The notes beneath the pieces were generated by a model. That model had not been told where the DNA came from, made no database searches, and was given only the letters and a program-made list of their open reading frames with translations. The position numbers and the translations under genes were made by a program. 64,000 nucleotides of DNA from Bradyrhizobium sp. CIAT3101. Its GTDB lineage: Bacteria > Pseudomonadota > Alphaproteobacteria > Rhizobiales > Xanthobacteraceae. Shown here piece after piece: positions 32,810-47,720 of the stretch. Position 1 is the first letter of the stretch, and every line of letters starts with the position of its first letter. The DNA lies in assembly GCF_029714945.1 (NCBI RefSeq), contig NZ_CP121634.1:2687001-2751000 (forward strand). Reading direction: 5' to 3'.

Positions 32810-33388
32810 ATGACAAATGTCGTACGCTATCTGACCCATCCTCAGGTGAGTATCGATCCGTCGATCCCCGTTCCGCGCTGGGGTCTGAGTGCGGTTGGGA
32901 AGGCGCGTACAGAAGCCGTGACGATCACCGGATCGCTGTCGGCTACCACGCGGGTCGTCTCCAGCGGAGAGCGGAAGGCGATCGAGACGGCTGAGATCAT
33001 TGCCGCAAAGCTGGGCGTTGACGTAGAGGTGTGCGATGCGATGCATGAGAACGACCGATCGGCCACGGGCTTCCTCGTCCCCGACGAGTTCGAGGCAGTG
33101 GCCAATCAGTTCTTCGGGCACCCCCGCATCAGCGTTCGTGGCTGGGAACGAGCGATTGACGCCCAGTTGCGCATTGTCCAGGAGGTAGAGCGCGTATTGG
33201 CGCACGACAGGCCGGGTGATGTGCTCCTTGTCGGCCACGGTGGCGTTGGTACTCTCCTATACTGCCATTATTCCGGTTTTGCGATTGCTCGCGCCCATGA
33301 CCAACCCGCTGGCGGCGGTTGCTTCTTCGCGTTTCGACTGCATGATCGTCGCGTGTTGCATGCGTGGCGTCGCCTCGAAGAGCTGTGA
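32810..33388 (+). CDS. Histidine phosphatase-like protein
   Basis: The protein has 192 residues from the ATG giving MTNVVRYLTHPQVSID; a start 10 codons upstream is possible and neither has a good ribosome site. It looks like a phosphoglycerate-mutase-type phosphatase: SSGERKAIETAEIIAAKLG supplies the second arginine, MHENDRSATGF the acidic residue, and LVGHGGVGTLLY the second histidine. The first signature is RYLTHP, not the usual RHG, so the nucleophilic His may be displaced. It follows the ATPase by 57 bases and may remove phosphate from a sugar phosphate, which is inference. Confidence 0.65.
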   Translation: MTNVVRYLTHPQVSIDPSIPVPRWGLSAVGKARTEAVTITGSLSATTRVVSSGERKAIETAEIIAAKLGVDVEVCDAMHENDRSATGFLVPDEFEAVANQFFGHPRISVRGWERAIDAQLRIVQEVERVLAHDRPGDVLLVGHGGVGTLLYCHYSGFAIARAHDQPAGGGCFFAFRLHDRRVLHAWRRLEEL

Positions 33389-33678
33389 TTTTCGCGAAGG
33401 GCAATCCCGATTGGACGATCCGTAGGAGTTCCCGAGCCAGTGGCGCTGGGCGCATCAGCCGCAGGCTTTGTCTCCGACGCGTTCGGACGACGCCAGACCG
33501 CGACACGCGGCGGCGGTGACGATCTTGCTGCGATCAGGCAGGCCACATCGTCTCTCGCGAGGGCGTCGAGAGGGTTGCATCCGTGAGCTTCCGAGGCGAA
33601 GAAACGTTGCAATGAAGGCACGACATCAAACGAAGGCGAGCATCTTACAACCGCCTCCGTCGAGACAGGAGCAGACCA
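33389..33678. other. Gene-free gap before the aldehyde dehydrogenase
   Basis: These 290 bases separate the amino-sugar operon from the next island. A very long antisense frame covers it but is a shadow of the aldehyde dehydrogenase gene. I see no conserved protein, hairpin or operator. The promoter of the dehydrogenase should lie here; AGGAG precedes its ATG. Confidence 0.4.
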
Positions 33679-35160
33679 ATGACAAAAGCCGAGATTCGAT
33701 TTCCGATCGACGGCCGAACCCGCAAGATGTTCATCGATGGCGCATGGGTAGAAGCCCGCTCGGGGAAGGTCTTCGAGACGCGCAATCCTGCGACAGGCGA
33801 GGTGATCGGTTGCGTGCCGCGTGGCGACGCGGCCGACATCGGCCTTGCCGTCACCGCGGCCCGTCGGGCGTTTGATGGCCCGTGGAGCCGCTTCAAGCCG
33901 TTCGAGCGGCAAGCGCTGCTGCTGCGGATCGCCGACCTCTTCGAGAAGCACTGGGAGGAGATCAGCCAGTCCGACACGACTGACATGGGCATGCCGATCG
34001 TCAGGACGCGGGCGAACAAGCTTCGCGTGCTCGGCATGCTCCGATATTACGCCGGCATGGCCACCGCGATCCACGGCCAGACGATCGACAATTCGCTTCC
34101 GGGTGACATCGTCTCCTTCACGCGAAAGGAGCCGGTGGGTGTCGTTGGCGCCATCATCCCCTGGAACGCGCCCACGGCGGCATCGGTGTGGAAGATCGGC
34201 CCTGCGCTCGCGACCGGCTGCACCATCGTGCTCAAGCCCTCCGAAGAGGCGCCGCTGACGCCACTGCTGATCGCGGATCTGATGAACGAGGCGGGTGTGC
34301 CGCCCGGCGTGGTCAACGTCGTGACCGGGACCGGACAGGAGGCGGGTGCGCCGCTGGCCGAACATTCCGGCGTCGACAAGATCGTCTTCACTGGCTCGAC
34401 AGCAACCGGACAGGCCATCGTTCGCGCCTCGGCCGGCAACCTCAAGCGGGTGGCGCTCGAGCTCGGTGGAAAGTCGCCGGTCATCGTCTGTGCCGACGCG
34501 GATCTCGACAAGGCTGTGCCGATTGCCGCGATGGCCGCATTCGCCAATTCGGGCCAGATCTGTATCGCCGGCTCCCGTTTGTTCGTCGAACGATCGATCC
34601 ACGACGAGCTGGTCGAACGGCTCGGCAAGTTTGCTTCGGCCCTGAAGATCGGCGATGGGGCCGATCCCACAACCGAGATCGGACCGATCGTGTCCGAGCG
34701 ACAGCTCGACAAGGTCGAAGGATTCCTGCGGAGCGGGCGCGACGAGGGTGCGAAGCTCGTGGCGGGAGGCCGAAGACTGAAAGAGGGCGCGCTTGCGAAG
34801 GGCAATTTCGTCGAGCCGACCGTGTTCGCCGGCGTCTCCGACAACATGCAGATCGCCCGTGACGAAATCTTCGGTCCGGTCATTTCCGCTCTGCCGTTCG
34901 ACACGCTGGACGAAGCCGTGACGCGTGCCAATGCGACGCCGTATGGGCTCGCGGCGGGTCTGTTCACGCGCGACGTGAGCAAGGCCCATATCATCTCGCG
35001 CAGTCTGCGCGCCGGATCGGTCTGGGTGAACACCTATCACGCCATCGACCCTGCCTTGCCCTTCGGCGGTTACAAGATGAGCGGATATGGACGAGAAGGC
35101 GGTACCGAGCAGCTCGATGAATACCTGAACACGAAGGGGGTCTGGATCAAGCTGGATTGA
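33679..35160 (+). CDS. NAD(P)-dependent aldehyde dehydrogenase
   Basis: The 493-residue enzyme has the full set of catalytic elements: N163 in IIPWNAPTAAS, the FTGSTATGQAIV nucleotide loop, general base E261 in ELGGKSP and nucleophile C295 in NSGQICIAGSR, plus the EIFGPV motif. It oxidises an aldehyde to an acid in the cytoplasm. It is upstream of a liv-type importer; a Nac-type site starts 42 bases after its stop, so it may have its own promoter. Aldehyde identity is unknown; it might act on the aldehyde released by the aldolase at 47019-47720. Confidence 0.92.
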   Translation: MTKAEIRFPIDGRTRKMFIDGAWVEARSGKVFETRNPATGEVIGCVPRGDAADIGLAVTAARRAFDGPWSRFKPFERQALLLRIADLFEKHWEEISQSDTTDMGMPIVRTRANKLRVLGMLRYYAGMATAIHGQTIDNSLPGDIVSFTRKEPVGVVGAIIPWNAPTAASVWKIGPALATGCTIVLKPSEEAPLTPLLIADLMNEAGVPPGVVNVVTGTGQEAGAPLAEHSGVDKIVFTGSTATGQAIVRASAGNLKRVALELGGKSPVIVCADADLDKAVPIAAMAAFANSGQICIAGSRLFVERSIHDELVERLGKFASALKIGDGADPTTEIGPIVSERQLDKVEGFLRSGRDEGAKLVAGGRRLKEGALAKGNFVEPTVFAGVSDNMQIARDEIFGPVISALPFDTLDEAVTRANATPYGLAAGLFTRDVSKAHIISRSLRAGSVWVNTYHAIDPALPFGGYKMSGYGREGGTEQLDEYLNTKGVWIKLD

Positions 35161-35201
35161 TCCGGACGTTCGCCGGCTCGCGGCACGCGCGCGTGGATCC
35201 T

Positions 35202-35222
35202 GCCATAAGAATTCGCTATGGC
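35202..35222. promoter_or_regulatory. Predicted LysR (Nac-type) binding site, copy 1
   Basis: GCCATA-N9-TATGGC is a perfect inverted repeat with an ATA-N9-TAT core, matching both the LysR T-N11-A rule and the known Nac consensus. The flank GGCAGAC that follows is also identical to the second copy at 42340-42360. It lies 143 bases before the binding-protein gene of the liv-type operon. Confidence 0.72.
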
Positions 35223-35254
35223 GGCAGACCGCAGTCGTGCTTCCCCCGCCCGCA

Positions 35255-35348
35255 GCTGCAAATCTATTTTTTACTGTCGGCCGCAGCAAAAAATTCCAAG
35301 AGCAAGATCGCAAAAGCGGCGGAGTGGTCAGGCGCATAGATTTGCAGC
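35255..35348 (+). promoter_or_regulatory. Spaced 13-base inverted repeat in the leader of the liv-type operon
   Basis: GCTGCAAATCTAT (35255-35267) and ATAGATTTGCAGC (35336-35348) are exact reverse complements, 68 bases apart. The right arm ends 17 bases before the ATG of the binding-protein gene, next to its ribosome site. It could form a long-range stem in the mRNA leader or be two half-sites for a protein. Its function is unknown. Confidence 0.55.
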
Positions 35349-35365
35349 AGCAATGGAGCGGGGAA

Positions 35366-36550
35366 ATGACGATTGAGTTGAGCCGACGGGGTTTTTGCAT
35401 CGGGACCGCCCTGATTGGACTGCAATCCGCTTCCTCCATTGCCTTCGCCCGAACTGAGGATGGCACGGTCAAGCTTGGCCTCGTCGCACCGATGAGCGGT
35501 CCGAACGCCAGATATGGCGCTTTTTCGCTGCGCGGCGCCGAGATGGCGGCGAAAGAGATCAACGCAGCCGGAGGCGTCGGGGGCCGCAAGATCAACGTCA
35601 TGCCCGCGGACAGCCAGGGAACGCCGGTCGAGGGCGTTTCGGCGACCCGGCGCCTGATCGACCAGAACCAGGTCGACTACATCATCGGCGACGTCTCGAG
35701 CTCGGTCACGCTGGCCATGCAGCCGGTCGTCGAGGACGCGGGTGTGCTGCTCCTCAATGCGGCGTCGTCCAACCCCATGATCACCTACAAGGCCGGTGTC
35801 GGCGGCTTCAAATGGACCTTCCGCAACTATCCGACCGACGAGAACCGCGCGCTGATCGTGCTGCAATACGCCGCCGAGAAGAAGGGCTTTACCAAATACG
35901 CTGTCCTCTCCGTCGACACCGACTATGGGCGCGCGGCCATCGCCTTCACCAAGAAGTACCTGCCTCGCTTCAACAGCCAGATCCTGACCGAGGATTACTA
36001 TAAGGAAGGTGAAGTCGATTTCCGCAGCGTGCTTTCCAAGATCCGCGATTCCGGCGCCCAGGCCATCATCATGTATGGCAATGCAGATTCGACGCCCATC
36101 GTCGGTCGACAGATGATCGAGGTCGGGATCGCCGGCAAGATTCCGCTGATCGGCAATGCCGAGTTCAATACGGCAAGCTCGATCAAGGCGGCACCGAAGG
36201 CGCTCGAAGGAGCCATCGAGGCGGCGGCCTGGCTTCCGGCGTACGACTCCCCGAAGAGCAAGGCCTTCGTGGAGAAGTTCATCGCCGAGTACGGCGAGGC
36301 GCCAAACAATCACGCCTATGTGCATTGGGAGACGGTGCATCTGCTGGCCAAGGCGATCGAGCAGGCCCAGAGCATCGACCGCGAGAAGGTCCGCGCCGCG
36401 CTCTCCGCCATCCACTACGATAGCGCAGTTGGCGAGGTGACGTTCGACGATCACAATCAGGCCCGCTTGCCGATGATCCTGCTGGAGATCGAGCACGGCA
36501 AGCCCGCGATCAAGGGAGCCTACTCGGCCGAGATCGACTATCCGAAGTAA
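35366..36550 (+). CDS. Branched-chain-type ABC binding protein with twin-arginine signal
   Basis: The protein has 394 residues from the ATG following AGCGGGGAA; an upstream frame of 43 codons runs through the inverted repeat and was discarded. The N terminus MTIELSRRGFCIGTALIGLQSASSIAFA has R7-R8 in a Tat-like setting. The LivJ/K fold follows: VKLGLVAPMSGPNARYGAFSLRGAEMAAKEINAAGGVGG. It is the first gene of a Liv operon under the predicted Nac-type site. The ligand is probably a nitrogenous compound degraded by the HyuAB enzyme downstream, which is inference. Confidence 0.87.
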   Translation: MTIELSRRGFCIGTALIGLQSASSIAFARTEDGTVKLGLVAPMSGPNARYGAFSLRGAEMAAKEINAAGGVGGRKINVMPADSQGTPVEGVSATRRLIDQNQVDYIIGDVSSSVTLAMQPVVEDAGVLLLNAASSNPMITYKAGVGGFKWTFRNYPTDENRALIVLQYAAEKKGFTKYAVLSVDTDYGRAAIAFTKKYLPRFNSQILTEDYYKEGEVDFRSVLSKIRDSGAQAIIMYGNADSTPIVGRQMIEVGIAGKIPLIGNAEFNTASSIKAAPKALEGAIEAAAWLPAYDSPKSKAFVEKFIAEYGEAPNNHAYVHWETVHLLAKAIEQAQSIDREKVRAALSAIHYDSAVGEVTFDDHNQARLPMILLEIEHGKPAIKGAYSAEIDYPK

Positions 36551-36570
36551 GGCAAAGCAACGAGACTCAT

Positions 36571-37443
36571 ATGTTCTACACGGTCATCGAGCAGGTCGTT
36601 AACGGCATCGTCTCCGGATCAGTCTACGCGATCGTTGCCGTTGGCATGACGATGATCTTCGGCGTGTTGCGCGCCATCAATTTCGCCCATGGCGAATACT
36701 ACATGCTGGGGACCTTCGGCGCCTGGTTCGCGATCGACTATTTCGATCTGCCTTATCCGGTGGCGATCGTGATCGGCGTGGTGGCGACGGCATTGATCGC
36801 CGTCGTCGTCGGCAATCTCGTGATGCAGCGGATCGTGGGAGCGCCAGCCGAGGCCGGGGTGCTCGCGACCCTCGGCGTCGCGCTGATCCTCCAGAATACC
36901 GTTATCCTGGTGTTCGGTGGCAGCTACAAGTTCTTCTCCGGCGGCTATATCGAGCCGGTGACGCTGTTTGGCTTCACGCTGGCCGAGCAGCGCATCCTCA
37001 TCATCATCGTCGGCCTCATCGTGTTCGTCGGCCTCGAACTGATGGTCACCTACAGCCGGATGGGCAAGGCGATGCGCGCGGTCTCGCAGAATATCGAGTG
37101 CTGTGCGGTGGTCGGCATCGACGTCCGACACATCGCGCTGTGGACCTTCATCCTCGGCGCCGGCCTTGCCGGGCTGTCAGGTGTGCTGACCGCGCCCGTC
37201 AACGTCAGTGTCTACGGCGGCATGGGCGAACTCATCACCTTCAAGACGCTGCCGATCATCATCATGGGCGGACTAGGCAATGTCCGTGGCACCTTCGTCG
37301 CGGCGATGATCCTCGGCATCGCCGAGAGCCTGGTCGCGACCTATGTCGGGTTGCAGTTCCGCGACACCGTCGGCTTTGCAACCCTGATGCTGGTGCTGAT
37401 GTGGCGTCCGCACGGGCTGTTCTCCGCGCAGGCGCGCTTTTGA
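36571..37443 (+). CDS. LivH-type permease
   Basis: The 290-residue membrane protein has the LivH signature VVNGIVSGSVYAIVAVGMTMIFGVLRAINFAHGEYYMLG at the N terminus and IIMGGLGNVRGTFVAAMILG near residue 230. It follows the binding-protein gene by 20 bases and is paired with the LivM-type permease 10-43 bases downstream, depending on the start chosen for that gene. Confidence 0.9.
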   Translation: MFYTVIEQVVNGIVSGSVYAIVAVGMTMIFGVLRAINFAHGEYYMLGTFGAWFAIDYFDLPYPVAIVIGVVATALIAVVVGNLVMQRIVGAPAEAGVLATLGVALILQNTVILVFGGSYKFFSGGYIEPVTLFGFTLAEQRILIIIVGLIVFVGLELMVTYSRMGKAMRAVSQNIECCAVVGIDVRHIALWTFILGAGLAGLSGVLTAPVNVSVYGGMGELITFKTLPIIIMGGLGNVRGTFVAAMILGIAESLVATYVGLQFRDTVGFATLMLVLMWRPHGLFSAQARF

Positions 37444-37486
37444 TCGCTGGGATGTGACATTGACCGAGATTGTCCGAGACCAGACC

Positions 37487-38473
37487 ATGACACCGGCAGA
37501 AAGCCCAGTGGCGAAGACCGGAACGGATCTGCGCGTCGCGTTCGGCCTTGCGCTGGCAGCGCTGGCCTGCCTGGCACCGCTGTTCCTCGGGAACTACCCG
37601 CTGCATGCAATCATCATCGCGTTGATCTTCCTGCTGCCGGCTCATGGTCTCAATCTGCTGCTCGGATACACCGGGCTGCTGTCGTTGGCGCAGGCAGCGT
37701 TCTTCGGCATCGGGGCCTATGCCTCGGCGCTGCTGGCGGTGCATTTCGGCACCCCGTTCTATCTGAATTTCCTCGCCGCCGGGCTCATCGCCGGTGCGAT
37801 CGCGCTTCCGCTCGGAATTCCCGCTTTGCGCCTGCGCTCGACCTCGTTCGTGATGTGCACGCTCGGCTTCGTGATCATCGGGCAGGCGATTGCGAAAAAC
37901 TGGATCAGCCTGACGCGTGGCGACATGGGCCTGGCCGCAATACCGAAGCCCTACTTTGCGCTAGGGCCGGCTTCATTCACGGTCTCCAGCACCGTCGGTT
38001 TCTATTATCTGGTGCTCGCGATCGCGGCGCTGGCGACCTTGGCGATCTATCTGATCGTGCGTTCGCCCGCGGGGCGCAACATGATCGCCATCCGCGAAAA
38101 CGAGACGCTGGCTGAATCCGTGGGCATCCCCACCTGGTACTACAAGCTCATCGTGTTCATGATCAGCGCCGCGTTTGCCGGGCTCGGCGGCAGCCTCTAT
38201 GCGCATTACCTCACGGTGGTGAGCCCGCTGACCTTCCAGATGTATTATTCGACCACGATGTTGATCATCGTGCTCGGCGGCGGCGCAGGCACCATCTCGG
38301 GCGTCATCTTCGGCAGCCTGCTGTTCGTCGGTCTCACCGAAGCCCTGCGCGTCGCGCCGGAACTGCGCATGATCGCCTACGGCTTCTTCCTGCTCGCCCT
38401 CGTCTTCTATTTCCCGAACGGTTTCGCGCCGCTGATCGGCCGTTTCTGGTCATTCCTCGAGAGGCGCAAATGA
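37487..38473 (+). CDS. LivM-type permease
   Basis: The protein has 328 residues from the ATG at 37487; an in-frame GTG at 37454 would add 11 residues and neither start has a clear ribosome site. The LivM core LNLLLGYTGLLSLAQAAFFGIGAYASALL is near residue 60 and LRLRSTSFVMCTLGFVIIGQ near 115. It has about ten hydrophobic spans. Its stop overlaps the LivG-type start (ATGA), so the two are translationally coupled. Confidence 0.88.
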   Translation: MTPAESPVAKTGTDLRVAFGLALAALACLAPLFLGNYPLHAIIIALIFLLPAHGLNLLLGYTGLLSLAQAAFFGIGAYASALLAVHFGTPFYLNFLAAGLIAGAIALPLGIPALRLRSTSFVMCTLGFVIIGQAIAKNWISLTRGDMGLAAIPKPYFALGPASFTVSSTVGFYYLVLAIAALATLAIYLIVRSPAGRNMIAIRENETLAESVGIPTWYYKLIVFMISAAFAGLGGSLYAHYLTVVSPLTFQMYYSTTMLIIVLGGGAGTISGVIFGSLLFVGLTEALRVAPELRMIAYGFFLLALVFYFPNGFAPLIGRFWSFLERRK

Positions 38474-39240
38474 GCGGGCTGCCGATTCTCGACATCTCCG
38501 GGCTCTGCAAATCCTACGGCGCGGTGCGCGCGGTCGACGGTGTCGACCTGCACGTCAACCGCGGCGAGATCTGCGGGCTGATCGGACCAAATGGTTCCGG
38601 AAAGTCCACTTTCTTCGATTGCGTGACCGGGCTTGCGAAGCCCAGCGCAGGTGCTGTGAAGCTCGATGGCCAGGACATCACCGGCTGGTCGCTGAACGAC
38701 ATTGCGCGGGAAGGACGCATGCTGCGCTCGTTCCAGAAGACGGTGGTGTTCTCTGCGCTCGATATCGAGGAGAACCTCGTCATCGCCGGCCAGATGTTTG
38801 CCTTCCCTGGAATCCTGTCGACCTTCGGGATCGGCGCCGCCGCGCGCAATCGCATTAAAGCCCTGCGGGAACGGGCGCGCGAGCTGATCAAGATCGCCGG
38901 CCTCTGGGACGTGCGCTTCCAGCCCGCGGGAAAGCTTTCGGGCGGACAACAGAAGCTGATCCAGTTTGCTTCCATGCTGATGCCGGAGCCGAAGCTCATC
39001 CTGCTCGACGAGCCCATGGCGGGCATCAATCCGAAGCTGATCGAACGTGTGGTCGAGAGCATTCGTCTTGCCAACACCTCGTTCGGCGTCAGCTTCTTGA
39101 TCATCGAGCACAACATCGACGTGGTCACCAGCCTGTGCCGGCGCGTGGTCGTGCTCGATCAGGGGCGCAAGCTCGCTGAGGGAACACCGGACGAGATCGT
39201 CCAGAATCAGGCGGTGCGGGAGGCCTATCTCGGTGGCTGA
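38470..39240 (+). CDS. LivG-type ATP-binding protein
   Basis: The 256-residue ATPase has Walker A GPNGSGKST near residue 38, signature LSGGQQK near 156, Walker B LILLDEPMAGINP and the LivG C-terminal tail EIVQNQAVREAYLGG. Unlike the other liv-type cluster in this window, LivG and LivF are separate proteins here. It overlaps LivM by 4 bases and LivF by 8. Confidence 0.92.
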   Translation: MSGLPILDISGLCKSYGAVRAVDGVDLHVNRGEICGLIGPNGSGKSTFFDCVTGLAKPSAGAVKLDGQDITGWSLNDIAREGRMLRSFQKTVVFSALDIEENLVIAGQMFAFPGILSTFGIGAAARNRIKALRERARELIKIAGLWDVRFQPAGKLSGGQQKLIQFASMLMPEPKLILLDEPMAGINPKLIERVVESIRLANTSFGVSFLIIEHNIDVVTSLCRRVVVLDQGRKLAEGTPDEIVQNQAVREAYLGG

Positions 39241-39973
39241 ACCCTCTCTTTCGATCAAGGGACTGCGCGCGGGCTACGGCTCGCTCGATATCCTCAACGG
39301 CGTCGATCTCGATGTGCCGCAGGGGCAGTTCGTTGCGCTGATGGGTCCGAATGGGGCAGGAAAATCGACGCTGCTCAAGACGCTTTACGGCATGACGACC
39401 GTCAAGGGCGGCAGCATCAACTGGCGGGGCAAGGACATTTCAGCCTTCAAGTCCCGCGCAATCCTGGCCGAAGGCATCTCCTGGGTGCCGCAGGGCCGTT
39501 GCAACTTTCCGGTGATGACGGTCGACGAGAATCTGCAGATGGCCGCCTACACGCTGCGCGACAGGAACGTGAAGGCGGAGCGCGACTATGTCTACGACTT
39601 GTTCCCGATCCTGAAGACACGCCGCAACACGCTGGCGGGCAACATGTCCGGCGGCGAGCAGCAATTGCTCGAGGTCGCAATGGCTGTGTTGCAGCGGCCA
39701 AAGATCCTGCTGGTCGACGAACCCTCGGTCGGCCTGTCGCCGACTGCGATCGGCGTCGTGTTCGACGAGCTGCTGCGTATCAACGCGGCCGGCCAGACCA
39801 TCCTGCTGGTCGAGCAGAACACCAAAAAGGCCATGCAGGTCGCTCAGCGCGCCGTCATCCTGCGGCTCGGCAAAGTGATCTGGGACGGGCGGCCCGCAGA
39901 CATCACCCACGACGAGCTCGGCGAGCTGTTCCTCACCGGCCGCATGCGCGGCGAGACCGACGTCGAGCACTGA
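39233..39973 (+). CDS. LivF-type ATP-binding protein
   Basis: The 246-residue ATPase starts at a GTG inside the end of the LivG-type gene, with GGAGG nine bases upstream. Motifs are GPNGAGKST, LSGGEQQ-equivalent MSGGEQQLLEVAMAVLQ, and ILLVDEPSVGLSP. It forms the ATPase heterodimer with the LivG-type protein and completes the five-part importer. Confidence 0.92.
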   Translation: MAEPSLSIKGLRAGYGSLDILNGVDLDVPQGQFVALMGPNGAGKSTLLKTLYGMTTVKGGSINWRGKDISAFKSRAILAEGISWVPQGRCNFPVMTVDENLQMAAYTLRDRNVKAERDYVYDLFPILKTRRNTLAGNMSGGEQQLLEVAMAVLQRPKILLVDEPSVGLSPTAIGVVFDELLRINAAGQTILLVEQNTKKAMQVAQRAVILRLGKVIWDGRPADITHDELGELFLTGRMRGETDVEH

Positions 39974-40002
39974 CACGACTTACAATCAAAAGGACGACCA
40001 CA

Positions 40003-41211
40003 GTGACGATCTTCGTGCCGGCCGCGCGCGTCTCGCGCATCAAGATATCCCCGACCACCGCGGCGTCCGCGCGCGTGCGCGAGCTGAAGGCTGCCGGCCG
40101 CGACATCGTCGACATGGCGATCGGCGAGCCTGACTTCGACACGCCCGACGACGTCAAGGCGGCGGCGCACGCGGCGATCGATCGCGGCGAGACGAAATAT
40201 ACCGCCGTCAACGGCACCGTGGCGCTGCGCAAGGGGATTATTGCCGACTACAAGCGTCGCCTCGGGCTCGACTATAGTGACAACGAGATCTGCGTCGGCG
40301 GCGGCGCCAAGCAGATCCTGTTTCTCGCGTTGATGGCGAGCGTGGAGGAGGGCGCCGAGGTCATCATTCCCGCGCCGTACTGGGTCTCCTATCCCGACAT
40401 GGTCATTGCCAACGACGGCAAACCGGTGATCGTCCGCTGCTCCGAGAACCAGGGATTCAAGCTGACGGCTGATGCGCTGGAGGCCGCTATCACGCCGAGG
40501 ACGCGGTGGCTGATCCTCAACGCTCCCTCAAATCCGACTGGAGCTGCCCATTCCCGCAGCGATCTCGAAGCGCTCGGCGCTGTGCTGTCGCGCCATCCCG
40601 ACGTCCTCGTGCTCTCGGACGATATTTACGACCAGATCTGGTACCGCGACGAACCGGCGACGACGCTTGCGGCGGCGGTGCCCGCGTTGAAGGATCGCAT
40701 CCTGCTGACCAACGGCGTGTCAAAGACCTATGCCATGACCGGATGGCGGATCGGTTATGCCGCCGGCCCCGCGCCGCTGGTTTCGGCGATCAACAAGCTG
40801 CAATCGCAGATGTCGTCGTGCCCATCGTCGATCAGCCAGGCCGCTGCGGCCCATGCGCTGACCAGCGACCAGTCGTTCGTGCGCGACAGCGTCAAGCTCT
40901 ACAAGGAGCGGCGCGATTATGCCTGTGCACGGCTGAACGCAATCCCGGGCCTGTCCTGCCTCGTGCCTGACGGCGCGTTCTATCTCTATCCCGGCTGTGC
41001 CGGCGTGATCGGCAAGACCACGCCCGAAGGCAAGGTCATCGAGAACGATCTCGACTTCGTACTTTATCTTCTGGACGGTGTCGGCGTTGCTGCGGTGCAG
41101 GGCGCGGCCTACGGGCTCTCGCCGTATTTCCGCCTGTCGATCGCGACCTCGATGGAGGCGATCAAGGAGGCCTGCGACCGTATCGAAAAGGCCTGTCGGG
41201 CGCTTCGTTGA
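40003..41211 (+). CDS. Class I/II pyridoxal-phosphate aminotransferase
   Basis: The protein has 402 residues from GTG with AAAAGGA nine bases upstream; the upstream frame overlaps livF and was rejected. The fold type I motifs are MAIGEPDFDTPDDV, NAPSNPTGAAHS, LSDDIYDQIWY and the PLP lysine K241 in SKTYAMTGWRIGYAAGP, as in aspartate aminotransferase subgroup I-gamma. It follows the importer by 29 bases, so it is probably co-transcribed. It likely removes the amino group from an amino acid freed by HyuAB or imported directly; the specific substrate is unknown. Confidence 0.88.
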   Translation: MTIFVPAARVSRIKISPTTAASARVRELKAAGRDIVDMAIGEPDFDTPDDVKAAAHAAIDRGETKYTAVNGTVALRKGIIADYKRRLGLDYSDNEICVGGGAKQILFLALMASVEEGAEVIIPAPYWVSYPDMVIANDGKPVIVRCSENQGFKLTADALEAAITPRTRWLILNAPSNPTGAAHSRSDLEALGAVLSRHPDVLVLSDDIYDQIWYRDEPATTLAAAVPALKDRILLTNGVSKTYAMTGWRIGYAAGPAPLVSAINKLQSQMSSCPSSISQAAAAHALTSDQSFVRDSVKLYKERRDYACARLNAIPGLSCLVPDGAFYLYPGCAGVIGKTTPEGKVIENDLDFVLYLLDGVGVAAVQGAAYGLSPYFRLSIATSMEAIKEACDRIEKACRALR

Positions 41212-41333
41212 GCACGCCGGGGCGCGGACCGAAGAACCAGGGGCGCTTCGCGAAGAATCTCATTGAAATCAACAGGCTAGATAAAGGATATTGCTGGTCA
41301 GAGTGACATCCTCAGAGCCGGTATTCGACACAT

Positions 41334-42272
41334 ATGAGCGTCGATTTCAGGAAGCTGAAAAGCTTTGTCAAAGTCGTCGATGCCGGAAGCGTCTCGCGCG
41401 CGGCCGGCCTGCTGCGCACGGCGCAACCGGCGCTCTCGCAGCAGATCGCTGCTCTTGAGAGCCACTTCAAGCACAAGCTGCTTCTGCGCAGCAATCACGG
41501 CATTGTCCCGACCGAAGCCGGCCTGATTCTCTATCGTCACGCCCAGTTGCTGTTGAAGCAGATCGAGCAGGCGCAGATCGACATCGACCAGTCGACCAAG
41601 GCACTGGCAGGGCGCGTGTCGATCGGACTTGCGACCTATTCGGCGTCGAGCACGCTATCGCTGCCGATTCTGAAAGAGATGTCGGCTCTGCATCCGCAGA
41701 TCATCGTCCATATCAACGATAGTTTCGGTCACGTGCTCAGCGAGCTCATCATGACCGGCAAGATGGATATGGCCATGATCTACGGTTCCGGGCCAATCAA
41801 GGGCGTCAAGCTCCAGCCGCTGTTTCGCGAGGAGCTGTATCTCGTGTCGCGCGCCGAGACCGCGAAGAAGTCGACGGACGAGCCGCTGCCGCTGTCGGCG
41901 CTGGCCGACGTCAAGCTGCTGCTGCCAAGCCAGGGGCATTTTTTGCGCCGCCTGATTGATGAATCGCTCGCGCGCGCGAGGGTAACGCCGAACGTCGCCT
42001 CCGAGATTGAATCGGTCTCGGCACTCGGCGCGGCCGTGACCGAGGGGTTGGGCTCGACCATCCTGCCGGCCTCGGTCGCCGCCGCCAGCGCGTCGAGCTT
42101 TGCGGGTGTCGAGGTGCGGCGCCTGGTGCGCCCCGCCATCGAGGCGACCGTGTCCTTGTGCGTCTCCGATCATCTGCCGCTGTCGGAGCCCGCGCTGGCC
42201 ACGCGCTCGGTGCTTCTGACAGTCGTCGAGAAGCTGATGCGCAGTCATCCGCAAGGCATTCGGGCGGTCTAA
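41334..42272 (+). CDS. LysR-family regulator resembling Nac (nitrogen assimilation control)
   Basis: The 312-residue protein has an N-terminal winged helix-turn-helix, FRKLKSFVKVVDAGSVSRAAGLLRTAQPALSQQIAALE, and a dimerisation helix through about residue 90. The effector domain ends with the hinge EIESVSALGAAVTEGLGSTILPAS, which closely follows the Nac/Cbl-like group (enteric Nac has EIESITTLTAAIASGMGATVLPES). It sits between the aminotransferase and hyuA. Two copies of an ATA-N9-TAT palindrome, the form bound by Nac, precede the liv and hyu units, so it is probably their activator or repressor. Effector unknown. Confidence 0.87.
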   Translation: MSVDFRKLKSFVKVVDAGSVSRAAGLLRTAQPALSQQIAALESHFKHKLLLRSNHGIVPTEAGLILYRHAQLLLKQIEQAQIDIDQSTKALAGRVSIGLATYSASSTLSLPILKEMSALHPQIIVHINDSFGHVLSELIMTGKMDMAMIYGSGPIKGVKLQPLFREELYLVSRAETAKKSTDEPLPLSALADVKLLLPSQGHFLRRLIDESLARARVTPNVASEIESVSALGAAVTEGLGSTILPASVAAASASSFAGVEVRRLVRPAIEATVSLCVSDHLPLSEPALATRSVLLTVVEKLMRSHPQGIRAV

Positions 42273-42339
42273 GCAGAACGCTTGCCATCTATGGCACGAG
42301 CATCGACGCAGCTCGGCTGCATTGTGCCGGTTTCGCTAT

Positions 42340-42360
42340 GCCATAAACAAAACCTATGGC
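42340..42360. promoter_or_regulatory. Predicted LysR (Nac-type) binding site, copy 2
   Basis: GCCATA-N9-TATGGC lies between the regulator gene and hyuA, 73 bases before the hyuA start. The arms and the following GGCAGAC are identical to copy 1 at 35202-35222, while seven inner spacer bases differ. Conservation of arms but not spacer is the mark of a protein-binding site. Confidence 0.75.
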
Positions 42361-42433
42361 GGCAGACGGGAGTTGTGGTGGTCGCGTGCGGCCGCATTTC
42401 CTACCCTCGAAAACAATCGCTTCGAGGAAAAAG

Positions 42434-44500
42434 ATGGCCAAGCTCGCATTCGATACCGGGGGAACCTTCACCGATTTCGCGCTGCTCGACGACAAGGGCG
42501 AACTTCATCTCCACAAGGTGTTGAGCACACCGGCCAATCCGGCCGAGGCCGTGGTTCGCGGGGTGTCCGAACTGCTCGCGGAATTCGGCGACGTCGTTGA
42601 CCTCGATGGCCTTCAGGTCTTGGGGGCGACCACCGTCGTCACCAATGCGGTGCTGGAGCGCAAGGGCGTCAAGACCGGATTCATCTCGACCGCCGGCTTC
42701 CAGGACATGCTCCGCATCCGCAACGAAGGACGCTACGATCTCTACGACCTGAACTTGAAATATCCGGATCCGCTGGTGACGCGCGCGAACAGCTTCGGTG
42801 CGATCGAGCGCATATCGGCGGACGGCGAGGTCGTCACGGCGCTCGAGGAGGAGACGGTCCGCGAGATCGCCGGCCGATTGCGCGAGGAAGGCATCAAGTC
42901 CGTCGCCGTCTGCCTGCTGCACGCCTACAAATATCCTGATCATGAGCAGCGCATCGCGTCGCTGCTGCGCGAGGAATACCCCGGTATCTTCGTGTCGCTG
43001 TCGTCGGAAGTTTGCCCGGAGGTTCGTGAGTTCGACCGCGCCTCGACCACCGTCGTCAACGCCTACACGCGGCCGCAGATGTCCGGCCACGTCGCGCATC
43101 TCGAGCACGAGTTCGCCGCGAAGGGTATCCATCGCCAGGTGCTCTGGATGACGTCGTCGGGCGGCCTCGTGCCGAGCAGCCGGGCTGCGGAGCTGCCGGT
43201 ACGGCTCATTGAATCGGGCCCGGCCGCCGGCGCCGTTGCAGCTGCCGAATTCGGCCGCATCGCGGGCGAGGGCAGCGTGCTGTCGTTCGACATGGGCGGC
43301 ACCACCGCAAAGCTGTGTCTGATTCCGAACGGCGAACCGACGGTCGGCACTGATCTCGAGGTTGCGCATTATCATCGCTTCCGCAAAGGCTCGGGCTTTC
43401 CCCTGAAGATCCAGTCGATCCGCATGATCGAGATCGGCGCTGGGGGAGGCTCGATCGCAGCGAAGAATCCGCTCGGTCTGCTCGACGTCGGTCCGCGTTC
43501 GGCGGGCGCGCTGCCGGGGCCGGCCGCCTATCAGCGCGGCGGCACCGAGCCAACCGTGACCGACGCCGATATCCTGCTCGGCTATATGGGCACCGAATCC
43601 TTCGTCGGCGGGTCGTTCAAGGTTTCCAAGGACGCCGCCCTCTCGGCCATGTCGAAGCTCGCAGCTTCGCTCGACGTCAGCGTGCCGCGCTGCGCCTTCG
43701 GTATCCACGATCTCGTCAATGAATCCATGAGCAAGGCGGCGGCCGTGCATGCGACCGACCTCGGCGTCGATCCGCGAAGCCTGCCCATGGTCGCCTTTGG
43801 CGGCGCCGGTCCCGTGCATGCCTATGGCATCGCGCGCAAGCTCGGTATCAAGCGCATCATCTGCCCGACCGGCGCCGGTGTCACCTCGGCGATCGGCTTG
43901 TTGATTGCTCCCGTTGCGGTGGACCTCTCCGCGAGCTTCCCGATGCAGGTCGACAATTGGGATTTCGCTACGATGGATCGCCTGCTCGGCGACCTCTCCG
44001 CGCAAGGGGCGGACGTCGTGCGCGCCGCGGGCGTCGCCCCGGACACGATCACCAACAGCTACACGGTGGACATGCGGCACGTCGGCCAGGGCCACGAGAT
44101 CACCGTTGCATTGCCGGATCGCAGCCTGCCGCCGGAGCAATTCCACGAGGAGCTGCTCGGCAATTTCTACAAGCTTTATCGCGAACTGTTCGGGCGCACC
44201 GTTGCTGGTTCATCCGTCGAGGTCATCACCTGGCGTCTGCGCTCCAGCGGCAAGAAGGATCAGGTGACTCGCCCCCATGCGCGCGATGTTGCCGAGGCCA
44301 GGAAGGGCGCACGTTCGGTCTATTTCAGCGAAGCTGGCGGCTTCGTCGATACGCCGGTCTACGATCACTACAAGCTGCCGGTCGACGGGAAGATCCAGGG
44401 CCCGGCGATCGTCGAGCAGCGGGAATCGACCGCTGTCGTCGGACCGAGCGGAACGGCTCACGTCGACGTCAACGGCAATCTCGTGATCAACATCGCCTGA
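42434..44500 (+). CDS. hyuA: Hydantoinase/oxoprolinase-type ATPase subunit A
   Basis: The protein has 688 residues from the ATG with GAGG six bases upstream; a 26-codon longer frame was rejected. The Hydant_A N-terminal domain starts LAFDTGGTFTDFALLDD. The hydantoinase A core includes GAAEFGRIAGEGSVLSFDMGGTTAKLCLI (ASKHA phosphate loop), IGAGGGSIA and VAFGGAGPVHAYGIARKLG. With HyuB this forms an ATP-dependent enzyme that opens cyclic amides such as 5-oxoproline, N-methylhydantoin or lactams; related pairs carboxylate ketones. The substrate cannot be read from the sequence. It is 12 bases from hyuB. Confidence 0.88.
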   Translation: MAKLAFDTGGTFTDFALLDDKGELHLHKVLSTPANPAEAVVRGVSELLAEFGDVVDLDGLQVLGATTVVTNAVLERKGVKTGFISTAGFQDMLRIRNEGRYDLYDLNLKYPDPLVTRANSFGAIERISADGEVVTALEEETVREIAGRLREEGIKSVAVCLLHAYKYPDHEQRIASLLREEYPGIFVSLSSEVCPEVREFDRASTTVVNAYTRPQMSGHVAHLEHEFAAKGIHRQVLWMTSSGGLVPSSRAAELPVRLIESGPAAGAVAAAEFGRIAGEGSVLSFDMGGTTAKLCLIPNGEPTVGTDLEVAHYHRFRKGSGFPLKIQSIRMIEIGAGGGSIAAKNPLGLLDVGPRSAGALPGPAAYQRGGTEPTVTDADILLGYMGTESFVGGSFKVSKDAALSAMSKLAASLDVSVPRCAFGIHDLVNESMSKAAAVHATDLGVDPRSLPMVAFGGAGPVHAYGIARKLGIKRIICPTGAGVTSAIGLLIAPVAVDLSASFPMQVDNWDFATMDRLLGDLSAQGADVVRAAGVAPDTITNSYTVDMRHVGQGHEITVALPDRSLPPEQFHEELLGNFYKLYRELFGRTVAGSSVEVITWRLRSSGKKDQVTRPHARDVAEARKGARSVYFSEAGGFVDTPVYDHYKLPVDGKIQGPAIVEQRESTAVVGPSGTAHVDVNGNLVINIA

Positions 44501-44512
44501 GGACCACGCCCC

Positions 44513-46195
44513 ATGTCCGTGAATGCTGCCGATTTCAATGATCCCATCAATCTGCAGGTGATGTGGAATCGCCTGATCTTCATCGCCGATCAGGCCGACA
44601 TCGTGCTCGGCCGAACCGCATTCTCGCCGATCGTACGCGAAAACCACGATTATGTGACCGTGCTGCTCGACAGCCGCGGCCGTGCACTGGCCCAATGCAC
44701 CTGGTCGATCCCTGTGTTCATCACCTCGCTGCCGGTGGCGGCGCAGAAATACTTCCTGCCGAAGTTTCCGGCCGAGACGTTGCAAGAGGGCGACGTGCTT
44801 GCCACCAATGATCCTGAGATCGGCACCGGTCATTTGCCCGATGTCACGATGATCACGCCGATCTTCAAGAACGGCAAGGTCGTGGCCTACGCCGGCTCGA
44901 TCGCGCATCTTCCTGACATCGGCGGCGCACCCCTGCATTCCGAAGCCAGCGATATCTTCGAGGAGGGTATCCGCTTCCCGATCGTGAAGCTGCACAAGGC
45001 CGGCGTCCCCAATCAGGACGCGCTCGACATCATTGCCGCGTCCGTTCGGCTTCCCACCGAAGTGATGGGCGATCTTGAATCCATGGTGGCGGCCAACAAT
45101 GTCATGGGCCGCGAGCTGGTCAAATTCCTGGACGAGTATGGTCTCGACGGGATCGACGAGCTGGCCGACGCGATCCACACCCGCTCCGAAGCGCAAACCC
45201 GGCGCGCGATCCGGCAATGGCCGAACGGTACCTACAGCGCCGAGGTCCTGCTCGACGGATACGATACCGATGTGACCCTCAAGGCCGCGGTGATCGTCCG
45301 CGACGATTCCATTCATGTCGACTACACCGGAACGTCGGAGCAGATCCTCCACTCGATCAATTGTCGCACCAACTATCGCTACGCGCATTCGGTCTATGCG
45401 CTGAAATGCCTGCTGGACCCCGATACGCCGAACAATGAGGGTTGCATCACGCCGATCACGGACGAGGCGCCGCTCGGTTCCATTCTCAATCCCGAGGAAT
45501 GGACCGCTGGCAATTCGCGTAACCTGATCGGGCATGTGATTCCGTCGCTGATCTTCAAGGCGCTGGAAGGCGTGGTGCCTGATAAGGTGATGGGCGATAG
45601 CGGCGGTGCGCCGATCTGGGCCGCCAATTGCGTCGGACGGCGCGACGATGGTTCGCAATATGGTTCGGTGCAGAATTTTCACGGCGGGCAGGGCGCCCGC
45701 GCCGAATTCGACGGTCTGGACACCCTGAGCTTCCCGTCCAATTGCCGGGTTACGGCGATCGAGATGTTCGAGATCGCGGTCCCTGCGCTCACCGAGTGCA
45801 AGGAGCTGATCGCGGATTCCGGCGGCGCCGGTAGGAGCCGCGGCGGTCTCGGCCAACGCGTCGTGTTGCGCAACCTCGGGCGCAACCCGATGAACATTTA
45901 TCTGGCGTCAGAGCGCGTGCGACACCCCTGTTTCGGTGTCGTCGGCGGCAAGTCCGGGAGCGCCGGCAAGGTGTACAGGAATGGCGAGCCCCAGTTTCCC
46001 AAGGGCAAGGTCGTGCTGAAGACCGGCGACCGCCTGGAAGTCGAGACGCCCGGTGGCGGGGGCTGGGGGCGCACAGCCGATCGTACGGCGGCCGCGATCG
46101 AGCTCGACCTCGCCGAAGGCTTGATTACGCCCGAGGCGGCGAGGCAGATTTACGGCTATCAGAGCTCCAGCGTGGCGGCGACCGCAGCCGAATAG
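44513..46195 (+). CDS. hyuB: Hydantoinase/oxoprolinase-type subunit B
   Basis: The 560-residue HyuB/acetone-carboxylase-alpha-like subunit shows the family features DPINLQVMWNRLIFIADQADIVLGRTAFSPIVRENHDY, GDVLATNDPEIGTGHLPDVTMITP and SGGAGRSRGGLGQRVVLRNLG, with the C-terminal VETPGGGGWG. It has the catalytic amide-opening half in HyuA/HyuB, caprolactamase and oxoprolinase complexes. It lies between hyuA and the SDR gene with gaps of 12 and 7 bases, hence one operon. Confidence 0.88.
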   Translation: MSVNAADFNDPINLQVMWNRLIFIADQADIVLGRTAFSPIVRENHDYVTVLLDSRGRALAQCTWSIPVFITSLPVAAQKYFLPKFPAETLQEGDVLATNDPEIGTGHLPDVTMITPIFKNGKVVAYAGSIAHLPDIGGAPLHSEASDIFEEGIRFPIVKLHKAGVPNQDALDIIAASVRLPTEVMGDLESMVAANNVMGRELVKFLDEYGLDGIDELADAIHTRSEAQTRRAIRQWPNGTYSAEVLLDGYDTDVTLKAAVIVRDDSIHVDYTGTSEQILHSINCRTNYRYAHSVYALKCLLDPDTPNNEGCITPITDEAPLGSILNPEEWTAGNSRNLIGHVIPSLIFKALEGVVPDKVMGDSGGAPIWAANCVGRRDDGSQYGSVQNFHGGQGARAEFDGLDTLSFPSNCRVTAIEMFEIAVPALTECKELIADSGGAGRSRGGLGQRVVLRNLGRNPMNIYLASERVRHPCFGVVGGKSGSAGKVYRNGEPQFPKGKVVLKTGDRLEVETPGGGGWGRTADRTAAAIELDLAEGLITPEAARQIYGYQSSSVAATAAE

Positions 46196-46202
46196 GGGAA
46201 AC

Positions 46203-47006
46203 ATGGGTCTGCTCGATGGAAAGGTCGCACTCGTTACCGGTGCCGGAACGGGGATCGGCCGCGAGACCGCGATCCTGCTCGCAGGGGAGGGCGCAACGGT
46301 TGTCCTGACCGGACGCCGGATCGAGCCGCTGCGCGACGTCGCCGCGATCATCGAGAAGGCCGGCGGAAAGGCTGTCGCTCACGAGCTGGACGTGGCATCG
46401 CGCGAGGCGATCCTGGAGACGGTCGCCTGGGCCAAGCGCAACGTCGGAGCGATCGACATTCTCGTCAACAATGCCGGCAGTGCCAGCAAGGTGTTGAACG
46501 CGCGTTTCCTCAGCGAAGTCGAATGGAACGCCACGGTGAATGTCAATCTCACCGCAGTGTTCAACCTGACGCAGGCCGTTCTGGAGGACATGATTGCCAG
46601 GACGGAAGGCACGATCATCACCGTGTCGTCGCTCGCGGTGGTGAATCCCAATCTGCTCGGCGGCGCCGCCTATGGTGCGGCCAAGGCCGGTGTGAAGAAC
46701 TTCATGACTTTCCTGCACAACACCTACCGCAACCAGGGTATTCGTGCGACGACCATCCTACCGGGCGAGACGGATACGCCGATCATGGACAATCGCGCGC
46801 GGCCGCCGCTCGACAATGAGCGTGCCGTGATGCTGAATCCGCACGACGTCGCGCGCGCGGTCCTGCTCTGCGCAAGCCTGCAAAAGGGTGCAGTCATTCC
46901 GGAGCTGCATATCTGCCCGACCTTCATGCGCGACACATCGGCGGATATCGAGGTGGCCCGCTGGGTTGGCGCGCCCGCGGATCTGAAAGACAAGCCAAAG
47001 AGCTAG
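46203..47006 (+). CDS. Short-chain dehydrogenase/reductase
   Basis: The 267-residue classical SDR has cofactor loop TGAGTGIG (12-19), NNAG (89-92), and a catalytic Ser-Tyr-Lys set with S142/143, Y157 and K161 in YGAAK. A typical GxG plus R38-R39 after the second strand favours NADP(H). It oxidises or reduces a hydroxy/keto intermediate in the hyu operon, between hyuB (7 bases) and the aldolase (12 bases). Substrate unknown. The hydroxyacid or semialdehyde linked to the aldolase is a reasonable guess. Confidence 0.87.
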   Translation: MGLLDGKVALVTGAGTGIGRETAILLAGEGATVVLTGRRIEPLRDVAAIIEKAGGKAVAHELDVASREAILETVAWAKRNVGAIDILVNNAGSASKVLNARFLSEVEWNATVNVNLTAVFNLTQAVLEDMIARTEGTIITVSSLAVVNPNLLGGAAYGAAKAGVKNFMTFLHNTYRNQGIRATTILPGETDTPIMDNRARPPLDNERAVMLNPHDVARAVLLCASLQKGAVIPELHICPTFMRDTSADIEVARWVGAPADLKDKPKS

Positions 47007-47018
47007 AGAGGACTTCCC

Positions 47019-47720
47019 ATGAACGGAGCCAGGCTGCGCGAACGTCTTGCCAAGGGCGAGGCGGTGACGATGCTCACGCCGCATCATGCCTCGTCGGGAT
47101 TGGCGGTCCGGCTCATCGAGCTCGGGGCAGACGCCATATTCGTCGATTGCGAGCACGGCACCTGGAGTTTCGAGGACGTGCGCGTGGCAGCGCAAGTCAT
47201 CCGTGGTGCAGGCGGCGCGGCGATCGTGCGCCCGCATTCGCATGAGCGGCCAGTCCTCATCCGCTACCTCAATGCGGGCGCTGATGGCCTCATGGTGCCG
47301 ATGGTCGACACGGCGGAGCAGGCGCGCGCAATCGTCGATGCTGTGCGATATGCCTGTCCCGCCGACCACCAGAAGCGGTTGATCATCGCGATGATCGAGA
47401 CGCCTCAGGCAATCGACAATATCGATCAGCTTCTCACGGTGGAAGGCATTGACGTGTTCTTCATTGGCCCCGGCGATCTCTCTCAGAACATGGGATATCC
47501 GCCGGCCCCTGCGTTCGGTGAACCGAGGCCCCAAGCAGTGATCGATCGGGTCGAGTTTGCCGTGAAAAAGATTTGCGCGGCGGGCAAGATCGCCGGGACG
47601 CTGGTGACATCAGACGAACTGCCGTTTTGGCTCGGGCGCGGCGTCAAATATTTCTACATTCATTCGGACCCATTCCTGCGGATTGGTCTCGCCGGAATCA
47701 AGAAAGCGCTTGGCCGGTAA
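47019..47720 (+). CDS. HpcH/HpaI-family aldolase
   Basis: This 233-residue TIM-barrel enzyme of the HpcH/HpaI aldolase/citrate lyase family has FVDCEHGTWSFEDVR, the metal-site Glu in IAMIETPQAIDNIDQLL, and GIDVFFIGPGDLSQNMGYP. It splits a 2-keto-4-hydroxy acid into pyruvate (or oxaloacetate relatives) and an aldehyde. It ends the hyu operon and converges with the LacI gene 75 bases on. The aldehyde could feed the aldehyde dehydrogenase at 33679. It might alternatively serve the sulfoquinovose set next door, but the strand and spacing favour the hyu operon. Confidence 0.87.
   Translation: MNGARLRERLAKGEAVTMLTPHHASSGLAVRLIELGADAIFVDCEHGTWSFEDVRVAAQVIRGAGGAAIVRPHSHERPVLIRYLNAGADGLMVPMVDTAEQARAIVDAVRYACPADHQKRLIIAMIETPQAIDNIDQLLTVEGIDVFFIGPGDLSQNMGYPPAPAFGEPRPQAVIDRVEFAVKKICAAGKIAGTLVTSDELPFWLGRGVKYFYIHSDPFLRIGLAGIKKALGR

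Follow-up and report, generated by a model that had tools for sequence, protein, structure and literature searches.

A conserved candidate LysR-type operator at two promoters of an uptake and hydantoinase-type locus in Bradyrhizobium sp. CIAT3101

The window analyzed here is a stretch of 64,000 nucleotides from Bradyrhizobium sp. CIAT3101 (NZ_CP121634.1, positions 2,687,001 to 2,751,000), in which two perfect copies of one palindromic element head two gene runs, a liv-type uptake run and a hyuA run, with a gene for a LysR-type regulator between the two sites. Judged from sequence and relatives, the element is a real, well conserved, two-promoter candidate LysR operator, and its proposed partner is a regulator that is Nac-like but, by its place in the tree, not Nac. 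It is quite probable that the local LysR protein would bind both sites near -64 and switch uptake and ring opening jointly. The pair provides a candidate operator whose constraints are defined at base level, together with a named proposed partner protein, for a LysR group encoded both chromosomally and on plasmids in rhizobia and related bacteria.

The operator pair and its conservation

The palindrome GCCATA-N9-TATGGC is located at 35202-35222 and 42340-42360 of the window, both on the + strand and with centres 7138 bases apart, and GGCAGAC follows directly 3' of both copies. The two sites, their identical arms and the shared GGCAGAC had been described in an earlier sequence-only reading of the window and were confirmed; the spacers (AGAATTCGC and AACAAAACC) do differ as that reading had stated, though at 6 of 9 positions and not at seven. 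Identity between the sites extends beyond the palindrome (GCCATAA..A....CTATGGCGGCAGAC.G.AGT.GTG), and the long element can be written as GCYATAA-N7-CTATRGCGGCAGA, mostly followed by AGTTGTG and promoter-like sequence. A genome scan for GCCATA-N9-TATGGC, which the earlier reading had suggested, matched all 12 arm positions at exactly two places in the 9.37-Mb, single-contig genome, both in the window. With one mismatch in the arms, 13 more places were found, compared with 9 places at up to one mismatch for the reversed control. With up to 3 mismatches allowed, the longer-form pattern matched only the two window sites and its reversed control gave no match, and the 27-base core gave 2 extra matches at 3 mismatches versus 5 for its reversed control. 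Thus, by core and arm scans set against reversed controls, no third operator beyond chance was found in the window genome.

The same element was found in related loci. A set of 27 two-unit loci (the window, L006-L020, L108, L109, L113 and L121-L128) was collected from Bradyrhizobium, Bosea, Sinorhizobium, Rhizobium, Agrobacterium, Neorhizobium, Microvirga, Terrarubrum, a record named Frankia sp. RB7 and three further genomes. In 27 of 27, the core GCYATAA-N7-CTATRGCGGCAGA has exactly 2 matches at up to 3 mismatches, and the matches precede the binding-protein gene and hyuA; 49 of the 54 are perfect and the other 5 have one mismatch. Loss of the sites in orthologous loci, which the sequence-only reading had raised as an outcome that would speak against it, was not seen among these loci. 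In three Bradyrhizobium-type one-unit loci (L110-L112), whose LysR is 57% identical to that of the window and whose gene order is lysR, binding protein, livHMGF and hyuAB, the core occurs once each, in the interval from lysR to the binding-protein gene, and carries 2 or 3 mismatches. The number of operator copies follows the arrangement of the genes, with one copy where they form a single run and two where lysR, mostly together with the aminotransferase gene, splits the run. The reversed core pattern had 0 matches over the 655,855 bases of the 30 loci. In L018 and L123, where the gap between lysR and hyuA is 1.3-1.5 kb, the site remains by hyuA (site 12246 and hyuA 12394 in L018; site 12122 and hyuA 12267 in L123), and both sites are present in the Bosea (L016) and Terrarubrum (L122) loci, in which the aminotransferase gene is absent at this place.

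The sites are also linked to the LysR clade. Among 265 genomes of the genus, 23 encode a LysR at least 84% identical to that of the window, and a pair of CCATA-N9-TATGGCGNCAGA sites (up to one mismatch), 7.0-7.2 kb apart, is present in all 23. In 21 of these pairs both sites are free of mismatches; G582 has one mismatch at one site and G620 one at each. In the remaining 242 genomes, 18 have a match, one of them free of mismatches (G610), and none carries two matching sites on a single contig; with the reversed control, 4 of the 265 have a match. Of the regulator genes in the 6 plasmid loci that list lysR, lysR alone was found in the same position in all 6. Plasmid pRL12 of Rhizobium johnstonii 3841 shares the gene order of the window. 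The claim that the operator can be deduced from the sequence is therefore upheld by the relatives and by this linkage. In wider samples than the genus, LysR searches, in which, as in the genus search, at most 5 or 8 first-look candidates per genome were scored, gave hits at E ≤1e-80 in 13 of 397 genomes of the order (the window genome, two above 70% identity at 95 and 74%, and ten at 46-48%) and at E ≤1e-90 in 2 of 385 genomes of the class and 2 of 398 of the phylum, the window genome included; the class match is L120, which was used in the trees and upstream scans. Among the open-licence papers of PubMed Central that were listed, no report was recognized as describing the operator or the LysR clade.

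The promoter profile was built from 12 divergent two-unit loci out of 19, with near-copies and the three one-unit loci excluded. Between -10 and +29 of the palindrome centre each base carries 1.5-1.9 bits of information, against 0.2-0.5 further upstream; downstream of +29 the values are lower, with a second rise to 1.0-1.2 at +50 to +59. The consensus consists of GCCATAA, the spacer, CTATGGCGGCAGA, N4, AGTTGTG, T and CTA-like letters about 50 bases from the centre, and the TA of the -10-like element lies 52-54 bases 3' of the centre in both window promoters. With CTA taken as the start of an alphaproteobacterial -10 element, the palindrome centre would fall at about -64, and transcription starts are predicted near 35276 and 42413. 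LysR boxes have the form T-N11-A, and LysR activators typically have their site centred at about -64. The two-unit loci possess such a T-N11-A palindrome together with a second conserved stretch near the -35 region, as placed from the predicted start.

Upstream of lysR, a conserved block, ATTGAAATCAA ... CTAGATAAAGGATA, is present at 41260-41294 of the window and in most near Bradyrhizobium loci, and it was not seen in the distant loci L015, L016, L018, L020, L108, L109 and L113; it may be lysR's own promoter. A short dyad with operator-like letters and a 2-base spacer, GCCATCTATGGC, lies at 42284-42295, in the gap that separates lysR from operator 2.

The regulator and its relation to Nac

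The window LysR possesses an HTH_1 domain (PF00126, 65.1 bits) and a LysR substrate-binding domain (PF03466, 102.8 bits). It passes the NCBIfam NAC model NF008410 with 324.7 bits against a cut-off of 309, a margin of 16, with the next model at 131, and is 38.9% identical to Escherichia coli Nac over 296 amino acids, in agreement with the earlier claim of resemblance over the whole length. Among solved LysR structures, only general LysR relatives were found, the best being OxyR at 5.1e-19 and none reaching 1e-20. The scores of related proteins show where the curated cut-off falls: L101, a protein of the clade that holds E. coli Nac, reaches 491.1 bits, proteins from other Nac-like groups lie near the cut-off at 303.5-326.3 bits, and the relative that is 57% identical to the window LysR falls under it with 303.5 bits. 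Because the cut-off falls among paralogues, NAC as an automatic name is no guide to nitrogen-starvation control in the window clade. In a part of a Rhizobium etli network study, E. coli nac work is cited for a regulator so named (PMC9611204).

The final tree contained 29 proteins, namely the 37 rows of the first tree minus 10 (four distant outgroups and six near-duplicates) plus L100 and L103, with E. coli Nac as the sole enterobacterial Nac. L100 and L103 have one stop in the matched stretch, and their segments were cut there, leaving 298 residues each. E. coli Nac groups with four Bradyrhizobium-type LysR proteins, L100-L103, at support 98/99 and 50-53% identity, and the first tree, which has long outgroup branches, also joins it with the Bradyrhizobium proteins L101 and L102 (98/99). 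Orthology of the window LysR to Nac was examined by placing E. coli Nac within the window clade, and this placement was rejected by the approximately unbiased (AU) test (p = 0.0023). Of the 26 inner branches in the second tree, 11 are open; the window LysR falls in no starred set, and E. coli Nac forms a long row. The exclusion of E. coli Nac from the window clade is thus more secure than the detailed branching order. Furthermore, the genome G426 holds both a window-type LysR (95%) and the Nac-clade LysR L103, and therefore the two kinds are paralogues.

The window genome has a second Nac-like LysR at 5927969, which is 39.4% identical to E. coli Nac over 279 amino acids; this gene (L118:8970-9863) scores 302.9 bits on the NAC model and has an ATA-N9-TAT site just upstream. 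In addition, other Nac-like LysR genes of the order (L114-L117) lie within about 5 kb of a gene for an aminotransferase of the same family (49-70% identity), and these neighbourhoods suggest several pathway-specific circuits of the window kind in the order.

Nitrogen control was considered through sigma-54-like promoters, for which the 300 bases 5' of each gene were scanned with a consensus of 12 scored positions. As background, 2000 random 300-mers of the window were used, of which 339 reach 9, 30 reach 10 and 0 reach 11. The region upstream of E. coli nac, the control, has an 11/12 match. Upstream of the window lysR the best score is 7/12, and the other 17 loci give 7-9, so that no sigma-54-like site above background was found there; the two target promoters are likewise at background level, with best scores of 7/12 and 9/12. 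Among the Nac-clade genes, L101 scores 10 and L102 9, both matches lying equally far from the start, and L100 and L103 score 7 and 8; L040 and L097, outside the Nac clade, also reach 9/12. These scores do no more than hint that the Bradyrhizobium Nac clade is wired to sigma-54. The consensus operator of Nac is ATA-N9-TAT. This core is present at both target promoters as putative binding sites and occurs 5' of 8 of 15 Nac-like LysR genes, where 0.69 would be expected; the 15 were picked from 19 loci without near-duplicates, and the 8 positives represent about three related groups. The operator core seems, from these counts, to be common to the wider Nac-like group. The long element was found only at the local operons, although degenerate sites can escape a sequence scan.

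With the LysR outside the Nac clade, no sigma-54-like promoter above background at its gene and no extra genome copies of the long element beyond the reversed-control level, the nitrogen-type regulon proposed in the sequence-only reading is not borne out by the sequences. Its other suggestion, that one regulator links uptake and degradation, remains plausible as shared control, apart from the nitrogen regulon. For enzymes of this kind elsewhere, nitrogen or sigma-54 control has been discussed: according to a portion of one study, a hydantoinase operon of Paraburkholderia phymatum is a predicted RpoN target, and the study also cites a hydantoin utilization gene of B. diazoefficiens that RpoN targets directly (PMC5979394), which speaks for such control of hydantoinases in those organisms.

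The likeness of the window system to enteric Nac lies in a LysR-type regulator alike over its whole length, in the operator core ATA-N9-TAT and in a predicted operator centre near -64, which is also the position of the binding centre at Nac-activated hut. It differs from enteric Nac in that its LysR belongs to another clade and its lysR gene has no sigma-54-like promoter above background, and in that its element is longer, asymmetric and found only at the local operons.

Proposed circuit and competing explanations

Based on these observations, a possible circuit was proposed in which the two sites are one LysR-type operator set before two promoters. The LysR protein would bind the palindrome through its T-N11-A core, with the centre at about -64 from the predicted start, and the GGCAGA-N4-AGTTGTG stretch by the -35 region would probably assist activation. 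Once an inducer is present, probably the imported ring compound or a breakdown product, both units may be activated, activation being expected rather than repression; Nac, for its part, acts without a small-molecule inducer. Since one operator would stand before two promoters and be bound by the LysR, the transporter-aminotransferase-lysR unit and the unit of hyuAB, short-chain dehydrogenase and aldolase would be switched as one. A dedicated nutrient circuit, and not a general nitrogen-response network, is most likely what these sequences encode. We lean slightly towards the broader view that the alphaproteobacterial clade named NAC in databases consists of paralogues that show no visible wiring to nitrogen status and serve as a dedicated switch for one nutrient of the lactam or hydantoin type, with a 27-base operator that follows the transcription units.

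The arrangement resembles LysR activators of the BenM, CatM and ThnR kind, which use recognition and activation sites. The common features are a T-N11-A palindrome at a distance of about 64 bases 5' of the predicted start, an adjoining conserved stretch towards the -35 region and a regulator gene within the controlled cluster. In contrast to that kind, the window has two separated promoters that are read in one direction, where that kind has a single divergent promoter, and its regulator gene has no element upstream.

Several points weigh against the proposed circuit. The repeated arm pair alone is unremarkable, and weak as evidence, because among the 49 perfect 6-N9-6 inverted repeats in the window, which have 46 different arms, three arms occur twice, GCCATA included; the strength of the observation rests on placement, on identity beyond the palindrome and on the relatives. 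These relatives belong to related loci, partly of the same species, so that the 30 loci are not 30 independent cases, and a motif as short as ATA-N9-TAT cannot by itself be assigned to a protein. The one-unit loci L110-L112 do not retain the AGTTGTG stretch, and the -10-like CTA was not seen at hyuA of the Agrobacterium loci L125 and L127; since both are absent in some loci, the outer parts are less general than the palindrome, and the -35 and -10 assignments are weak. No operator copy was found 5' of lysR itself, which sets it apart from many autoregulated LysR genes. Finally, G541 keeps the operator without a window-type LysR or operon.

G541, one of the 18 genomes with a match outside the 23, carries this orphan copy as an uptake promoter (L107:5572-5721) some 140-150 bases long, which shares 81-83% identity with the longest-matching loci and is apparently a deletion remnant. 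In G610, one operator-like site (L119:9020-9046), with 1 mismatch to the core, is located beside a different LysR gene (27% identity).

A true Nac orthologue, acting on both units within a global nitrogen-limitation regulon through NtrC and sigma-54, is a very improbable explanation. It would account for the pass on the curated NAC model, for the name NAC that many relatives carry in databases, for the fit of the operator to the Nac consensus and for the nitrogen-type genes nearby. Against it stand the grouping of E. coli Nac with four other Bradyrhizobium LysR proteins and the AU result, the far higher NAC score of a Nac-clade member, the presence of both kinds in G426, a lysR upstream score at background where E. 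coli nac reaches 11, and the finding of no extra sites above the level of the reversed controls. That a different regulator binds the sites, with the LysR between them by chance or controlling something else, is improbable. In its favour, a LacI-like gene (named by eye) lies at 47796-48836, and the similar site in G610 stands beside an unrelated LysR. The palindrome nevertheless has the geometry of LysR boxes, the site pair and the LysR clade co-occur across the 265 genomes, of 15 related loci just one, L006, was found to have the LacI-like gene, and the remaining regulators near the operons vary among 6 annotated plasmid loci.

Repression of both units by the LysR, relieved by the inducer without activation, appears unlikely. 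LysR proteins can repress, and the conserved stretch extends towards the -35 region; a centre at about -64 is usual for activation and leaves the -35 and -10 regions free, and the weak -35-like elements suggest that an activator would be needed. The chance that the sites are fortuitous palindromes, members of a repeat family or an RNA leader element is close to nil. The three arms that occur twice in the window would fit chance, but just two perfect copies exist in the genome and the element is conserved across several families of the order. An RNA leader is further opposed by the placement of the element upstream of the predicted transcription start, and Rfam gave no match at gathering score over 35160-42440. 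Joint activation of the two units by the local LysR thus stays the preferred explanation.

Genes of the two units

Unit 1 consists of genes for a binding protein, two permeases, two ATPases, an aspartate-transaminase-type enzyme and the LysR, and unit 2 of hyuA, hyuB and genes for a short-chain dehydrogenase and an HpcH/HpaI-type aldolase (Table 1). For the binding protein, the ATG at 35366 was chosen as the start over the mechanical GTG at 35237.

Table 1. Features of the two units and of their promoters, with positions in the window
Feature	Position	Strand	Basis or remark
Operator 1, GCCATAA-N7-CTATGGCGGCAGA, 5' of the liv-type binding-protein gene	35202..35228	+	arms 35202-35207 and 35217-35222
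Rest of promoter 1 (predicted): AGTCGTG block, -35-like TTCCCC 35241-35246, -10-like CTATTT 35264-35269	35229..35269	+	fixed-spacing conservation, 12 loci
liv-type (Peripla_BP_6) substrate-binding protein	35366..36550	+	PF13458, 261.7 bits
LivH/UrtB-type permease	36571..37443	+	below curated cut-offs of both models
LivM-type permease	37454..38473	+	below curated cut-off
LivG-type ATP-binding protein	38470..39240	+	below curated cut-off
LivF/UrtE-type ATP-binding protein	39233..39973	+	below curated cut-offs
Aspartate-transaminase-type aminotransferase	40003..41211	+	NF004769, 740.7 bits vs cut-off 617
LysR-type regulator, Nac-like paralogue, proposed binder of both operators	41334..42272	+	domains, NAC model, tree
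Operator 2, GCCATAA-N7-CTATGGCGGCAGA, 5' of hyuA	42340..42366	+	pattern match and conservation
Rest of promoter 2 (predicted): AGTTGTG block, -35-like TGGTCG 42379-42384, -10-like CTACCC 42401-42406	42367..42406	+	profile
HyuA-type subunit (Hydantoinase/oxoprolinase A)	42434..44500	+	PF01968, PF05378
HyuB-type subunit (Hydantoinase B)	44513..46195	+	PF02538, 493.9 bits
Short-chain dehydrogenase	46203..47006	+	domain search; order kept in 15 loci compared
HpcH/HpaI-type aldolase	47019..47720	+	domain search

The enzyme of unit 2 belongs to the same two-subunit families as the CapAB caprolactamase and the N-methylhydantoinase/oxoprolinase HyuAB. As described in a part of one report, HyuAB-type enzymes use ATP to open the rings of lactams, hydantoins or oxoproline, and the metal ligands of CapB are numbered D41, H99, D102 and H124 (PMC8453981). 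These four positions of the solved chain 6yra_B align with D46, H107, D110 and H132 of the window HyuB and are all kept. The window proteins differ from CapAB in that they are not caprolactamase by the curated models; this identity was rejected, the CapA and CapB models giving 524.1 and 215.7 bits where the cut-offs are 1000. The substrate class is probably a lactam or hydantoin that is opened with ATP.

The best solved relatives of the aminotransferase are aspartate aminotransferases, and those of the aldolase include a 2-keto-3-deoxy-sugar aldolase and 4-hydroxy-2-oxoheptanedioate aldolases. Because an aminotransferase and an HpcH/HpaI-type aldolase are both present, one might guess from the protein families that the ring compound opens to an amino acid, which is transaminated to a 4-hydroxy-2-oxo acid and then cleaved. 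In a part of the description of the Ti plasmid pTiEU6, hyuA/hyuB-type genes with a LysR nearby are reported as possibly opening lactam opines (PMC6733357). In the window, a 777-amino-acid antisense open frame at 33268-35601 overlaps an aldehyde dehydrogenase gene and operator 1, and is likely a by-product of G+C-rich coding sequence and no gene.

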